The position numbers and the translations under genes were made by a program. From assembly GCA_946546825.1 (NCBI GenBank), contig CAMNOK010000002.1:37668-101667 (forward strand): a DNA stretch of 64,000 nt, in the 5' to 3' direction. Numbering within the stretch: position 1 is the first letter of the stretch; the number at the start of each line of letters is the position of its first letter. Positions 6,583-55,053 of the stretch are shown here, piece after piece. The stretch is from an uncultured bacterium (GTDB taxonomy: Bacteria > Bacteroidota > Bacteroidia > Bacteroidales > Bacteroidaceae). The notes below the pieces were generated by a model. It saw only the letters and a program-made list of their open reading frames with translations, had not been told where the DNA came from and ran no database searches.

Positions 6583-8277
6583 TCAGGCTCCACAACAGAA
6601 CAAGACAATCAGTTGGGCTGTGAAAATGCGGAGGAACATGCTCAGCGGATATACCGTAGAGTAGCCGATAGCCGGAGCCTCCTTGGTGCAGGATGCGTTG
6701 GCGTAGGCCAGTGCGGGCGGGTCGGTATAGGTTCCAGCCAACATACCCATAATCGTAAAGTAGTTGAACTTATATTTCAGTCGGGCAATGGTTCCGATAA
6801 TCAGGATGGGGATGATGGTAATGAGGAAACCCGTATAGACATACTTGATGCCGTCTCCGGCAATCACGGTATCCCAGAATCCGGCACCTGCCTTGATGCC
6901 CACGCTGGCCAGGAAGAGCACAAGTCCTATCTCGCGCAGCATCATGTTGGCCGAAGTCGTGGTGTAGGTAACGAGTTTCATGCGGTAGCCAAAGCGTCCG
7001 ATGAGGATGGCTATGATGAGCGGACCGCCTGCTATACCAAGCTTCAGCGGAACAGGCATGCCGGGAATGGCGATGGGCAGGCTTCCAAACAAGATTCCCA
7101 CAATGATGCCGATGAAGATGGTGGCGATGTTGGGAGCATTCAGACGCTTCACCGAGTTGCCCAGCAGCTCGGCCACGCGGTTCACGTTTTCCTCAGCGCC
7201 GACCACCATGATCTTGTCTCCTACATGGAAGTGGTGGTTGCGTGAAGCGAAGAGGTCGATGCCTTGGCGGGTAATACGGGTGATATTTACGCCATAGACA
7301 CTGGAGAAATGCATCTTGCCCAGCGTCTTTCCGTTCATGCGGGGGTTGGTCACAACGACACGCTTCGATATCATGGGCTGCTTTTCTTCCTCAATGCCCC
7401 AGTCTGTTTCGTCTCTGGGCCCGATGAAAGCCTGTATGGCGTCGGCATCAGCTTCAGCGCAGACGATGAGTACCTTGTCGTTGAGTGAGAGCACTGTGTC
7501 GCGATTGGGGACGAGTACCTGACCATCATGGAGAATGCGGGTGCACACAATGTCACGGTTCAGGAACTCTGAAATCTGCATCAGTGTGCGACCTGCTATA
7601 AATTCGTTGGTCACCATCAGGTGTAGCTGGTAGGGCTTGGCGTGAGGATTCTGGGCCTCATCCTCTTGCAGTTGCATCTCCTCTTTCTCCAAGCTGACGC
7701 GGCAGATATAGCGCACTGCGATAGTGGCACCAATGATGCCGACAACTCCCAGTGGGTAGGCACAGGCATAGCCAGAGGCTATCTGTGGCACTTCGCCACT
7801 GGTGAAGACGGAGCTCAGGGCTTCGTTGGCAGCTCCAAGGCCCGGCGTGTTGGTCACGGCGCCATAGAGGGTGCCCACCATCATGGGGAGGTTCACGGGG
7901 TTGGTGGTGTCGAAGAACAGGTAGTAGCATCCAAACATCACGGCGATGTTCAGCAGGATGGCCGACGTAGAGAGCAGGTTCAGCGTGACGCCGCCCTTGC
8001 GAAAGCTCTCAAAGAAGCCCGGTCCCACCTGCAGACCGATGCAGAAAACAAAGAGAATCAATCCGAAGTCCTGTATGAAAGTCAGAATATCGGTTGGTCC
8101 GGTAAATCCTACATGTCCTGCCAAGATACCGGCAAAGAGCACGAAGGTCACACCGAGTGAGATGCCGAAAACCTTGATTTTGCCCAGCAGCACACCGACG
8201 GAGATAACGATGGCGTAGAGCAGAACAATGTGGGCAACCGACTCGTTGTTAGTAAAGAGGTTGATAATCCAATCCAT
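6583..8277 (-). CDS. Putative transporter, AspT/YidE-type with two TrkA-C domains
   Basis: Two membrane halves flanking TrkA_C-like domains ([28 protein letters not shown]). Confidence 0.88.
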
Positions 8278-51361: not shown

Positions 51362-51817
51362 CTATCTTTCCGAGCTCCTGACAGTGATATACACGGCCTC
51401 TCCCTGTTCCTTGGCCTTCACGATGAGCTCCTTGATGTTTCGGAGCCAGATGCGTGAGTTCAGCACCATGCCCTTTCTTTTGTTTTCTCCGGGTAGCAGA
51501 CAGCCTTTGGTTTCAAAGGGGTAGTTTCCTGCGTGAATCCTAATTCCTTGAAACAGAGGCACTCCTATGAGTTGCGGCAACCATTGGTTGAATTTCTTGG
51601 AGTAGTTGATGACTACGGGGTAGCGTCCTTCTGGTATGGCGAAAGGTTTCAGCTGTTGTGCCCTGTCGGGTGTGAGTTTGAGAGGGTCTTTGACGGTGGC
51701 GAGTTTCATGTGCAGGCATGGTGGTTCGAGAATGTCGCACAGGTAGCGGTTTCCCACATAGAGTTGTCCGATGGTGTAGGCCTTCTTGATGGCCTTGCGA
51801 TTGAGAATGAATTCCAT
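51362..51817 (-). CDS. DUF5675-like protein
   Basis: IPEGRYPVVINYSKKF, GIRIHAGNYPFETKGCLLPGENK. Confidence 0.85.
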   Translation of the reverse strand: MEFILNRKAIKKAYTIGQLYVGNRYLCDILEPPCLHMKLATVKDPLKLTPDRAQQLKPFAIPEGRYPVVINYSKKFNQWLPQLIGVPLFQGIRIHAGNYPFETKGCLLPGENKRKGMVLNSRIWLRNIKELIVKAKEQGEAVYITVRSSER

Positions 51818-51829
51818 GTCAAGTGAAAA

Positions 51830-51957
51830 GTTTAAAAGTTTAAAAGTTTAAAAGTTTAAAAGTTTAAGAGTTTAAGAGTTTAAGAGTTTAAGAGTTTAAG
51901 AGTTTAAGAGTTTAAAAGTTTAAGAGTTTAAGAGTTTAAGAGTTTAAAAGTTTAAAA
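51830..51957. repeat. 16 tandem copies of 8-bp GTTTAARA
   Basis: Uninterrupted 8-bp periodicity; R=A in copies 1-4, 11, 15, 16 and R=G otherwise. Confidence 0.97.
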
Positions 51958-51960
51958 GGG

Positions 51961-52743
51961 TCATCGTTGTCGGTAGTTGTTTTCAAGTACCTTGACGAAG
52001 TTGTCGGGCTGCAGGAGCCAGTCGAAGGTGCAGACGAAGTTGTGCTTGTTGCGTCCGTTGAGAAACGGGGAGAGTGCAGCATTGCGCATGGCCCTTACAA
52101 TCTGCTCGTCGGTGAACTGTCGGGCCAGGTTCCGGATGAGTTGCCGTCGGCGGTCGGTGAGATACTCGGTGGTGGGAATCCGGGTGTTTCTGGCACATCG
52201 GTTGAAGTAGCTGAGGAAGTTGGATAGCTGTTCTTCGGAAAGATTTCTCGTGTTTTCGGCTTCTTTTTCCATCGAATCAGCCTTCACCGTCTTTTCTGCA
52301 TCTACCTCCTGGTCATGATCGTTTTCGTTGACGTTTTCGTTGACGTTATCGTTATCGTTGACGTTGTCGTTATCGTTTTCGTTGACGTTATCGTTTTCGT
52401 TATCGTTATCGTTATCGTTTTCGTTATCGTTATCATGTGCGGACTTTTCGGACGCGGCGGACGTTTCTTCCTTTTTCTTCTTTCTGTATTCCTGCTTTCT
52501 GATTCGGTCGGCTTCGAGTCTCATCTCGTAGATTTCCTTGTCTTTTCTGATTTGCAGTTGCAGGAATCCGTATGCGATTTTGAGTTGCGGGTCAAGGTCG
52601 GGTGGTGTTGTCTCCTGTCCGTTGAGTGAACGGAAGAGGGCGTGGAAGAGCTTCCCCATTTGTTCTTCGGAGAGATCTCTGATGGCTTCATACTGGCTTG
52701 CGTAGAGTAGGAAGGAGTCTTTCTTTCTTGATTTCTGTTCCAT
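51961..52743 (-). CDS. DUF6291 N-terminal / phage replisome-organizer-like C-terminal protein
   Basis: KDSFLLYASQYEAIRDLSEEQMGKLFHALFRSLNG; C-terminal FVCTFDWLLQPDNFVKVLENNY typical of phage replication proteins. Confidence 0.8.
   Translation of the reverse strand: MEQKSRKKDSFLLYASQYEAIRDLSEEQMGKLFHALFRSLNGQETTPPDLDPQLKIAYGFLQLQIRKDKEIYEMRLEADRIRKQEYRKKKKEETSAASEKSAHDNDNENDNDNDNENDNVNENDNDNVNDNDNVNENVNENDHDQEVDAEKTVKADSMEKEAENTRNLSEEQLSNFLSYFNRCARNTRIPTTEYLTDRRRQLIRNLARQFTDEQIVRAMRNAALSPFLNGRNKHNFVCTFDWLLQPDNFVKVLENNYRQR
52321..52434. repeat. 19 consecutive coding hexamers (GTTWTC/GTTGAC/GTTGTC on plus strand)
   Basis: Encodes an (E/D/V)-N dipeptide tract; in frame throughout. Confidence 0.97.
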
Positions 52744-52800
52744 TGTGTTTCAGTTTGAGGGTTTAATAAATTTTTACGGCTGCAAATGTAAATACAAAAC

Positions 52801-52834
52801 ACGTCAGCACAAGATAATGACCTTGTGCTGACGT
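52801..52834. promoter_or_regulatory. Perfect 13-bp inverted repeat (operator and/or terminator)
   Basis: ACGTCAGCACAAG-ATAATGAC-CTTGTGCTGACGT. Confidence 0.85.
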
Positions 52835-52840
52835 CCCAGA

Positions 52841-52893
52841 AAGTATATTATCGGCTAAAAAAGTATGTTATCCCGAAAAAACAGTATGTTATC
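52841..52893. repeat. Iteron triplet, left
   Basis: AAGTATATTATC 52841, AAGTATGTTATC 52861, CAGTATGTTATC 52882; 20 and 21 bp spacing. Confidence 0.9.
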
Positions 52894-52901
52894 TTGTAGG
52901 A

Positions 52902-53468
52902 CTATTCCTGCTGGCTGATGGGTGGAAATCCTTCCTTGGTGAGCATCTTGACGAGTTGGGAGGCAATCGTCATGTTTCTTCTGAAGTTACGGTCGTCGTG
53001 TGGTGGAGAAAAGGTCTTCCACTCGTTGAAGCTTTTGCCAATCATATTGTTGGTCAGGGCCTTTTGGATGGTCTGGTAATTGCATTTCCACACTTTTGAT
53101 TCCGGCATGTTGAGTGAGTTGACCCAACTGACGAAGTCGTTGATCTTTTTGGATTTTCCGTAGCAGTCCACCATCACCCTGTAGATGGCGGCCCACTGGG
53201 TTTGCACGGCAAAGAGTTTGGTCAGTTGGCCGATGACCCTTGCTGCGACCTCGTCGGGCGGGTAGGGGGCTCTCGGTTCTTCATTTTCCGTCTGCGGTTC
53301 TTCATTTTCCGTCTGCGGTCCTTCTGTCTCCGCCTGCGTCTGTGGCAGGCCGTCATAGGGTGTCTGTTCCATACTGACGTTGGCCTTGTCGATGTTGAAG
53401 GTGACAAGTTGGTTGCCGGTGACGTTGATATAGTTTCCTTTGATATAGTATTTGTTGTTGGTGCTCAT
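52902..53468 (-). CDS. Hypothetical protein with N-terminal GNYINVTGNQ motif and acidic TENEEPQ repeats
   Basis: Clean 188-aa ORF in a conserved-looking operon. Confidence 0.75.
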   Translation of the reverse strand: MSTNNKYYIKGNYINVTGNQLVTFNIDKANVSMEQTPYDGLPQTQAETEGPQTENEEPQTENEEPRAPYPPDEVAARVIGQLTKLFAVQTQWAAIYRVMVDCYGKSKKINDFVSWVNSLNMPESKVWKCNYQTIQKALTNNMIGKSFNEWKTFSPPHDDRNFRRNMTIASQLVKMLTKEGFPPISQQE

Positions 53469-53552
53469 AGTGCTATATATATAAATAGGTGTATTGAATC
53501 TATGTTTAGAAAATGTTTAGAAAATAAGATGACAGCATAGGAATGATTGGGA

Positions 53553-53924
53553 TTAGTGATGATGTGGTCCGTTGTCATTGAAGTTGAAGGCTTGGTTTCC
53601 GCTGGCGTTGATCATGTTGCCCGAAACTTGCACGACGGTTTTCATCTGTTCCTCCATGAGCTCTGCCTTGTAGGTGCTTTGCAATTCATGCAGCATGTGG
53701 GGCAGGGCGCGCAGTGCCTCCTCGGTCATCAAGGGTATGTCGTCAATGAAGCCCTCAATTCTCATCCTTTTGTGTTCCGGAGAGTGGCGCATGGCATCAT
53801 TGAAGAGCACCTTGAGCTCCTGAAGGCCCAGAGTGTGGGTCTTTTCGCTGGGGGGACGGGCATTGTCGGCTGTCGTTTCCCCTTCCTGCTGAACATTATC
53901 TGTGAGTCTGTTCGGAGGCTTCAT
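53553..53924 (-). CDS. Hypothetical protein with C-terminal GNMINASGNQ motif
   Basis: 123-aa ORF with Bacteroidetes promoter upstream (TACTTTTG, minus strand 53982-53989; TTTG 54010-54013). Confidence 0.75.
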   Translation of the reverse strand: MKPPNRLTDNVQQEGETTADNARPPSEKTHTLGLQELKVLFNDAMRHSPEHKRMRIEGFIDDIPLMTEEALRALPHMLHELQSTYKAELMEEQMKTVVQVSGNMINASGNQAFNFNDNGPHHH

Positions 53925-53981
53925 AGTGGGGTGCTTTATTAAGCTATAAGGTTGAAAAAACTCTCTTTACCTATGTTTTTG

Positions 53982-54013
53982 CAAAAGTACGTTTTTTCTC
54001 CCATATCACCAAA
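53982..54013 (-). promoter_or_regulatory. Promoter of the 53924-52902 operon
   Basis: TTTG-N20-TACTTTTG on minus strand. Confidence 0.65.
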
Positions 54014-54024
54014 TAAATTTTGGA

Positions 54025-54077
54025 GATAATATACATTTTTTTTGAGATAACATACTAATTCCTGAGATAACATACTT
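54025..54077. repeat. Iteron triplet, right (opposite orientation to left)
   Basis: GATAATATACAT 54025, GATAACATACTA 54046, GATAACATACTT 54066; 21 and 20 bp spacing. Confidence 0.9.
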
Positions 54078-54127
54078 TTCTGCCTGTTGGCCCTATTCCA
54101 TTATCTTGCAGGTCGGAATACTATGCT

Positions 54128-54135
54128 TATCTTTG
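54128..54135 (+). promoter_or_regulatory. -7 element TATCTTTG of the HU-like gene
   Basis: TTG at 54106-54108, 19-bp spacer. Confidence 0.65.
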
Positions 54136-54241: not shown

Positions 54242-54700
54242 ATGAGCGTAAAATATAAGCTTTATCAAGACAACCGAGAGAAGAGTGCATACAAAGGAAA
54301 GTGGTATGCCCGTGCCGTACACAGTGGCGTTTTTGATCTCGACGGCATTGCCATGGAGATCGAGGAAAACGTCAGCGCCAAGGAGAGTGATGTCTATGCC
54401 GTGCTGAAAGAACTGGTGCGTGTCATGAAGCGCCATCTCCAGAATAGCGAGATTGTCGTCATGCCTGGCCTGGGCCGTTTCAAGATTGGCATCTCCACGT
54501 CGCCGGCCCTCACGGCCAAGGCTTTCAACAGCAGCCACAACATCCGTTCCTCTCACATCATCTTCCAGCCTCAGGTGAAGATCGACGTTGCCCATGGCAC
54601 CCGCTTCCGTGCACTGCTTGACGGCTGCACCTTCGAGGAGACCGTGTTTAACGATGTGAAGAAGGATCCCGACGACAGCTCCGACGACCCCCAGCCGTAG
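54242..54700 (+). CDS. HU-family DNA-binding protein (Bacteroidetes HU-like with extended C-terminus)
   Basis: VKYKLYQDNREKSAYKGKWYARAV; VVMPGLGRFKIGISTSPA. Confidence 0.92.
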   Translation: MSVKYKLYQDNREKSAYKGKWYARAVHSGVFDLDGIAMEIEENVSAKESDVYAVLKELVRVMKRHLQNSEIVVMPGLGRFKIGISTSPALTAKAFNSSHNIRSSHIIFQPQVKIDVAHGTRFRALLDGCTFEETVFNDVKKDPDDSSDDPQP

Positions 54701-54785: not shown

Positions 54786-54930
54786 GGTCACTGTTCGGCC
54801 CCAGAGTGGTCACCGCTTGGCCTCTGAGTGGTCACCGCTCAGGCACTGAACGACCGACCGCTTAGCCCCTGATCGGCCGACCGCTCGGACTCTGAACGGC
54901 CGACCGTTGATACCTCAAAAGATATACCCT
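54786..54930. repeat. Degenerate 22-23 bp intergenic repeat array
   Basis: GGTCAC at 54786, 54808, 54830; ACCGCT/ACCGTT at 54834, 54857, 54880, 54903. Confidence 0.8.
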
Positions 54931-54945
54931 TTAAAACCATTCATT

Positions 54946-55053
54946 ATGAACAAGGAAACCTGGAAATTCATCATTCAGACGGCCATCGCAATCCTGACGG
55001 CCATTGCCACCTCGATAGGTGTAAGCTCTTGCAACTCAGCGAACATCTTTTAG
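54946..55053 (+). CDS. 35-aa smalltalk-like small protein
   Basis: MNKETWKFIIQTAIAILTAIATSIGVSSCNSANIF*; absent from ORF track because of length; downstream of HU gene. Confidence 0.85.
   Translation: MNKETWKFIIQTAIAILTAIATSIGVSSCNSANIF

Follow-up and report, generated by a model that had tools for sequence, protein, structure and literature searches.

Phased repeat arrays beside the p188 gene as probable operators of an apparently undescribed regulator family in gut bacteria

Introduction

Non-canonical LexA proteins of Bacteroidetes combine an N-terminal CI-type HTH domain (PF01381) with a C-terminal S24 domain, and their sites are palindromes, GGA-N5-TCC and CTAA-N5-TTAG, that differ between groups (PMC8565304). 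The p188 family considered here resembles them in that S24-peptidase regulators are limited to the phylum and some p188-family members carry S24. Unlike in Bacteroidetes LexA, where the Ser-Lys dyad S24 domain sits at the C-terminus, S24 is N-terminal in p188-family proteins when it is present. In addition, no HTH match was found in p188 or the relatives scanned, the other domain has an unassigned, predicted helical fold, and the putative sites are phased direct repeats. Since domain order, proposed DNA-reading domain and site type all differ, the p188 family is not a member of the Bacteroidetes LexA group.

The p188 locus is also similar to a phage CI-type repressor/operator switch, in which a regulator gene is accompanied by operators at its own and neighbouring promoters, with replication genes behind the operator. 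In some p188 relatives, Bro-N/Ant anti-repressors lie behind the putative operator as well. Unlike the phage switch, the locus has direct repeats on one DNA face rather than dyads, and neither an HTH family nor viral relatives of the domain were found in the searches given below.

Helically phased direct repeats beside a gene are typical of iterons. Like iteron plasmid origins, the locus has helically spaced direct repeats at 20–21 bp beside the gene of their putative binder, with replication genes nearby. It differs from them in that no replicon and no plasmid matches were found and in having two arrays at promoters in equal register.

In BASS pairs, neighbouring genes share a short beta-type motif that is C-terminal in the first protein and N-terminal in the second (PMC8086366). 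The tail of p123 and the N-terminus of p188 likewise carry a beta-type motif matched within the locus; unlike in BASS, the second protein of the pair would be a regulator that binds DNA. Neither an NLR nor a Bell domain, both hallmarks of BASS, was found in p123 or p188 with Pfam, NCBIfam and PHROG.

Results and discussion

Two triplets of direct repeats flank the p123–p188 block

The window is the whole 64-kb stretch of DNA that was analysed. The genes around its two arrays are listed below.

51362–51817, minus strand: DUF5675 protein, a recurrent companion of p188-family loci (family match)
51961–52743, minus strand: DUF6291 and DnaD-like replication protein of the helicase-loader type, behind the left array (PF19808, 1.5e-14; phrog_10469, 1.3e-20)
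52902–53468, minus strand: p188, 188 aa, with an N-terminal beta motif and a conserved C-terminal helical domain (residues ~72–178)
53553–53924, minus strand: p123, the upstream partner, whose C-terminal tail resembles the p188 N-terminal motif
54242–54700, plus strand: HU-like protein of the HU-HIG family, behind the right array (Pfam PF18291, 1.6e-23)
54946–55053, plus strand: smalltalk (DUF6486) small protein, after HU (family match)

The window holds further repeats around these genes. An 8-bp unit (AAGTTTAA / AAGAGTTT) is repeated in tandem about 17 times at 51826–51957, between the DUF5675 and DUF6291 genes, and three imperfect 23-bp repeats (ACCGCTCAGGCACTGAACGACCG) lie at 54834–54902, between HU and smalltalk. 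A repeat tract at 52319–52432 encodes an Asn/Asp/Glu-Asn linker of the DUF6291 protein, and similar tracts at other places in this genome (G000:C13, G000:C20) match it.

A motif scan places the six sites of the two arrays as follows.

52842–52852, minus strand: left array site 3, GATAATATACT, promoter-proximal
52862–52872, minus strand: left array site 2, GATAACATACT
52883–52893, minus strand: left array site 1, GATAACATACT, 8 bp past the p188 stop codon
54025–54035, plus strand: right array site 1, GATAATATACA, with one mismatch
54046–54056, plus strand: right array site 2, GATAACATACT
54066–54076, plus strand: right array site 3, GATAACATACT, proximal to the HU promoter

The scan confirms the six sites of the original prediction, and the coordinates agree with its description of triplets that are inverted, flank the block 52902–53924 and lie ~100 bp away from the start codons of minus-strand genes at 52743 and 53924. 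Within each array the sites are direct repeats in a single orientation, spaced start to start at 21 and then 20 bp in the reading direction of both triplets. Exact matches to the site consensus, GATAAYATACT, are confined in the 64 kb to five of the six sites. First-order Markov simulation at window composition yields about one site per 64 kb at one mismatch or fewer, and a pair or triplet at the array spacing arose in 0 of 60 such runs of the window. Dinucleotide shuffles gave p = 0.0005 for each array. The original prediction had named random occurrence throughout the genome as evidence against itself; in the organism's own genome (1.72 Mb, 62% complete), motif pairs are confined to these two arrays. 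The triplets are real, unique in the available genome and not a product of chance.

Both arrays share a promoter register

The two arrays have a common layout, measured start to start: site, 21 bp, site, 20 bp, site, 33 bp, CATTATCTTG, 29 bp, TAnnTTTGC. The elements between the arrays and the genes are listed below.

52783–52790, minus strand: predicted −7 box TACATTTG of the DUF6291 gene promoter (Bacteroides consensus)
52801–52834, no strand assigned: 13-bp perfect inverted repeat with an 8-nt loop, between the left array and the −7 box (repeat scan)
52810–52819, minus strand: predicted CATTATCTTG box spanning the −33 region of the DUF6291 promoter (register; two copies in the window)
53982–53989, minus strand: predicted −7 box TACTTTTG (TACTTTTGC) of the p123–p188 promoter (consensus match)
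54099–54108, plus strand: predicted CATTATCTTG box spanning the −33 region of the HU promoter (register)
54128–54135, plus strand: predicted −7 box TATCTTTG of the HU promoter (consensus match)

The Bacteroides −7 consensus is TAnnTTTG, and CATTATCTTG departs from the −33 consensus, TTTG (PMC7366714). The window contains only two copies of CATTATCTTG, both in equal register. Compared over 112 bp, the two array regions are identical at 47 of 52 motif positions and at 23 of the remaining 60, where composition alone would give ~30% identity. Geometry that is kept while the filler diverges is as expected of functional promoter elements, and the arrays are accordingly read as predicted promoter elements, the left for the DUF6291/DnaD-like gene and the right for the divergent HU and p123–p188 promoters.

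The box layout agrees with the earlier placement of the right triplet upstream of the divergent HU promoter. Matching spacing and promoter register lend indirect support to the proposal that a single factor reads the six sites from one face of the DNA, and the proposed autoregulation gains similar support from the right array, which abuts the divergent p123–p188 promoter in addition to serving HU. This adjacency, the common register and the 13-bp inverted repeat had all been missed in the original prediction. The inverted repeat is likely either a terminator of the p188 transcript or an operator.

Phased repeats recur behind p188-family genes

The nearest homologs of p188 are 39–44% identical to it, and no ortholog above 44% identity was found in ~400 congeneric genomes. 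Eight nearest-homolog loci carry two AAATWTACKAT sites, 20 bp apart and at an equal position past the stop codon, that share the core AATATAC (or AATTTAC) with the window sites. The predicted −7 box in nearest-homolog loci always lies 69 nt after the stop codon, and at five of them (L003, L004, L009, L221 and L222) CATTA lies 29 nt before TAnnTTTGC, as in the window. Searches of the nearest-homolog loci with tblastn returned no HU or DUF6291 homologs. L005 (G050) has one more AAATTTACGAT site, oppositely oriented and ~157 bp ahead of its p188-family gene. This site overlaps a predicted −7 box, which suggests autoregulation there too.

The expectation of a GATAAYATACTN triplet across Bacteroidales was not borne out, and the repeat differs by lineage. 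The exact triplet occurs in 0 of 199 other congeneric genomes, the 44 unrelated loci with paired motifs found in public GTDB genomes include none that encodes a p188 relative, and no viral contig in IMG/VR contains the motif pair. In L076, a GATAACATACTTGTT triplet at 33–35 bp seemed related at first but was rejected, being close to a different gene and not at the array position. Beside an unrelated gene at L076 11161–11241, (GA)TAACATACTTGTT-type repeats occur in three copies at 33–35 bp spacing and are probably a local tandem duplication.

Many family members have a small direct-repeat array directly after the stop codon, with a sequence that differs by lineage and often with a terminator-like hairpin behind it. 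Array units include TACCAAATCG at 11 bp (L014-type), TTCTGAA alternating at 9 and 12 bp (L029-type), CAATAGCAAAA and AAACTCTCAC. Autocorrelation of exact 6-mers over the first 100 bp past the stop codon, across 76 non-redundant p188-family loci, shows recurrence peaks at 11–12, 20–22, 31–33, 42–43 and 52–54 bp. A line fitted through these peaks gives ~10.4 bp per step, close to the DNA helical repeat (period near 10.5 bp).

Lenient counting of repeats, with 7-mers, one mismatch allowed and three or more copies required, failed to tell the family from controls (61/76 versus 132/227), and shuffle-based tests of helical offsets were used instead. In per-locus shuffle tests at p < 0.01, with 227 other gene ends as controls, repeats at helical offsets are significant in 38 of 76 family regions and 27 of 227 controls, and repeats at non-helical offsets in 1 of 76 and 12 of 227. 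The Fisher p value for the helical-offset contrast, 4e-11, is indicative only, as the loci are related. Some control hits come from larger fragments that contain copies of family loci, so the true contrast may be greater still. Half of all family loci fail the array test, among them all 12 loci of the WRYD-type subgroup. Array similarity rises with protein identity, as in part does that of the DNA further downstream. Upstream of the p188-family gene of L068, at 6864–6920, is another 10-bp-phased repeat (CCGTTTCATG, three copies), which is unlike the array behind the gene.

Arrays that directly follow a stop codon, often ahead of a terminator-like hairpin, could in principle act as RNA in the p188 3′ UTR, through attenuation or as an antitoxin-like RNA, rather than as DNA sites. 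We regard this as highly improbable, since the right array is not downstream of p188 but between divergent promoters and in the opposite orientation, and since the spacing tracks the DNA helical repeat.

Among the candidate binders originally named (the DUF6291, 188-aa, 123-aa and HU proteins), p188 is favoured because its homologs are followed by phased repeats. HU lost ground, as the HU genes of a relative (G172), read by eye, have no comparable array in front. Both HU and DUF6291 genes were dropped as array carriers once the homologs' loci had been read. Another protein, whether HU-like, p123 or a host factor, might still read the sites, with p188 associated through linkage only: HU proteins are DNA binders, and binding of the sites by p188 is something we infer. 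Such a reader is improbable given the relative whose HU homologs lack an obvious array. In addition, p123 has no relatives among 199 congeners, yet arrays are widespread, and S24-fused members have arrays and carry their sensor domain within the one protein.

The p188 C-terminal domain

A high-confidence prediction gives the C-terminal part of p188 a six-helix fold (pLDDT 92, pTM 0.87); the domain has a net charge of −2. It belongs to no Pfam, NCBIfam or PHROG family, and no sequence relatives were found in the PDB. Foldseek returned no significant match, the best being the Sap1 DNA-binding domain (E = 0.41), and no HTH family was detected in p188 or the relatives scanned. The domain is present in 51 of 301 genomes sampled from the same family (~17%) and absent from 298 other Bacteroidota genomes of a phylum-wide sample (n = 299). 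The literature searched, in which subscription journals are little covered, contains no description of the domain or its repeats. The p188 family and its repeats apparently form a wider, undescribed group in Prevotella-type gut bacteria.

Some family members have the domain fused to an S24 peptidase (PF00717, 2e-24) and also match UmuD-like and CI-like repressor families. The S24 domain of these fused relatives is N-terminal and contains a lysine downstream of a GDSM-type serine; p188 gave no match to S24. Phage matches to an S24-fused query were rejected as family relatives, as their alignments are confined to the S24 part. A phased array is found at 14 of 18 S24-fused members, so the C-terminal domain is what array-bearing loci share. 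To our knowledge the S24 part is not a DNA binder by itself, which makes the C-terminal domain the likely reader of the repeats. At L131, L135, L144 and L150, the N-terminal region is weakly HIRAN-like and no phased array passes p < 0.01.

A matched partner motif and the gene context

In the window, the tail of p123 (VVQVSGNMINASGNQAFNFND) is similar to the N-terminus of p188 (KYYIKGNYINVTGNQLVTFNID), and p123 itself has no significant family in Pfam, NCBIfam or PHROG. At loci with a nearby upstream gene, the window included, the partner tail best matches its own neighbour's N-terminus in 10 of 16 cases (chance 1/16; binomial p = 5e-9). The beta motif varies between loci and is matched within each. 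In the simplest picture, the partner would be a sensor in trans where S24 is a sensor in cis.

Genes behind the arrays include DnaD-like (in the window), DUF3127/SSB-like and primase-like genes as well as Bro-N anti-repressors. Defence pairs that are AriA/AriB-like (PARIS-type) and AbiL-like lie directly upstream of p188-family genes at L068 7676–9800 and L072 6882–8935. Replication, anti-repressor and defence neighbours together point to an accessory or possibly mobile setting of the p188 family.

The same context bears on whether the arrays are iterons of a replication origin, at which a p188 initiator would recruit a DnaD-like loader or primase and HU would help to melt the DNA. Helically phased direct repeats adjoin a gene, and DnaD-like, primase-like and SSB-like genes lie behind many arrays, both as an origin would have it. 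The neighbouring DnaD-like protein is a loader-type relative, and p188 matches no family in Pfam, NCBIfam or PHROG. However, two arrays stand in equal promoter register at two different promoters, the nearest homologs keep their fixed 69-nt distance to a predicted −7 box, and S24-repressor fusions exist, as do anti-repressors behind arrays. No plasmid relatives of p188 were found, nor any phage or viral match to p188-type proteins without S24; scans of viral contigs with p188 and with the DUF6291 protein, each singly, gave no matches. An origin is therefore unlikely, and origin handling is less likely than promoter control.

A proposed regulatory switch

The arrays, their promoter register, the family-wide repeats after the gene, the matched partner motif and the S24 fusions are all features read from the sequence. 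They make it probable, with appreciable room for doubt, that the triplets are operators of p188 acting as a transcription regulator. Points against this are the domain's net negative charge and its want of a significant fold match, the family loci that fail the array test, and the rise of downstream DNA similarity alongside that of the arrays. The N-terminal beta motif of p188 would pair with the upstream partner p123, and the C-terminal helical domain would read direct repeats spaced by whole turns, so that the copies line up on one DNA face. From the left array p188 would control the DUF6291/DnaD-like gene, and from the right array HU–smalltalk and its own p123–p188 operon, repressing these promoters until p123 receives a signal. 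In fused family members, the S24 (LexA/UmuD-like) peptidase would play the p123-like signal role. Three parts of this scheme we infer: that the domain binds DNA, whether it represses or activates, and what p123 contributes.

Alternatively, p188 could be an activator that polymerises on the array upstream of −33 and recruits RNA polymerase. The arrays do lie upstream of −33 at a fixed distance, not over −10/−33, and CATTATCTTG is unlike the TTTG consensus of Bacteroides. S24-type relatives such as LexA and CI are mostly repressors, however, anti-repressors lie behind some arrays, and in L005 a site overlaps the −7 box predicted ahead of the regulator gene. Activation is thus rather doubtful, and p188 is more likely to be a repressor.

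A broader reading of the family, possible but tentative, is that of a modular switch of Prevotella-type accessory loci. A so far undescribed domain would bind direct-repeat operators with helical phasing, which are placed directly after its gene and differ from lineage to lineage. The switch would be driven by a LexA-like peptidase in fused members or, in trans, by an upstream sensor docking via an amyloid-like beta motif that is matched to the locus. If so, amyloid-type signalling would in effect be coupled to transcription.

Significance

In gut bacteria, the genes of the p188 family seem to control replication and defence-type accessory loci. If the proposal is true, a family of short 'hypothetical' proteins would gain a function and a testable target, the repeats behind each gene, and an unassigned DNA-binding fold would be added. 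Operator and regulator would diverge together, and the operator could be read from the genome for dozens of members. Matched beta motifs would also acquire a possible link to transcription.
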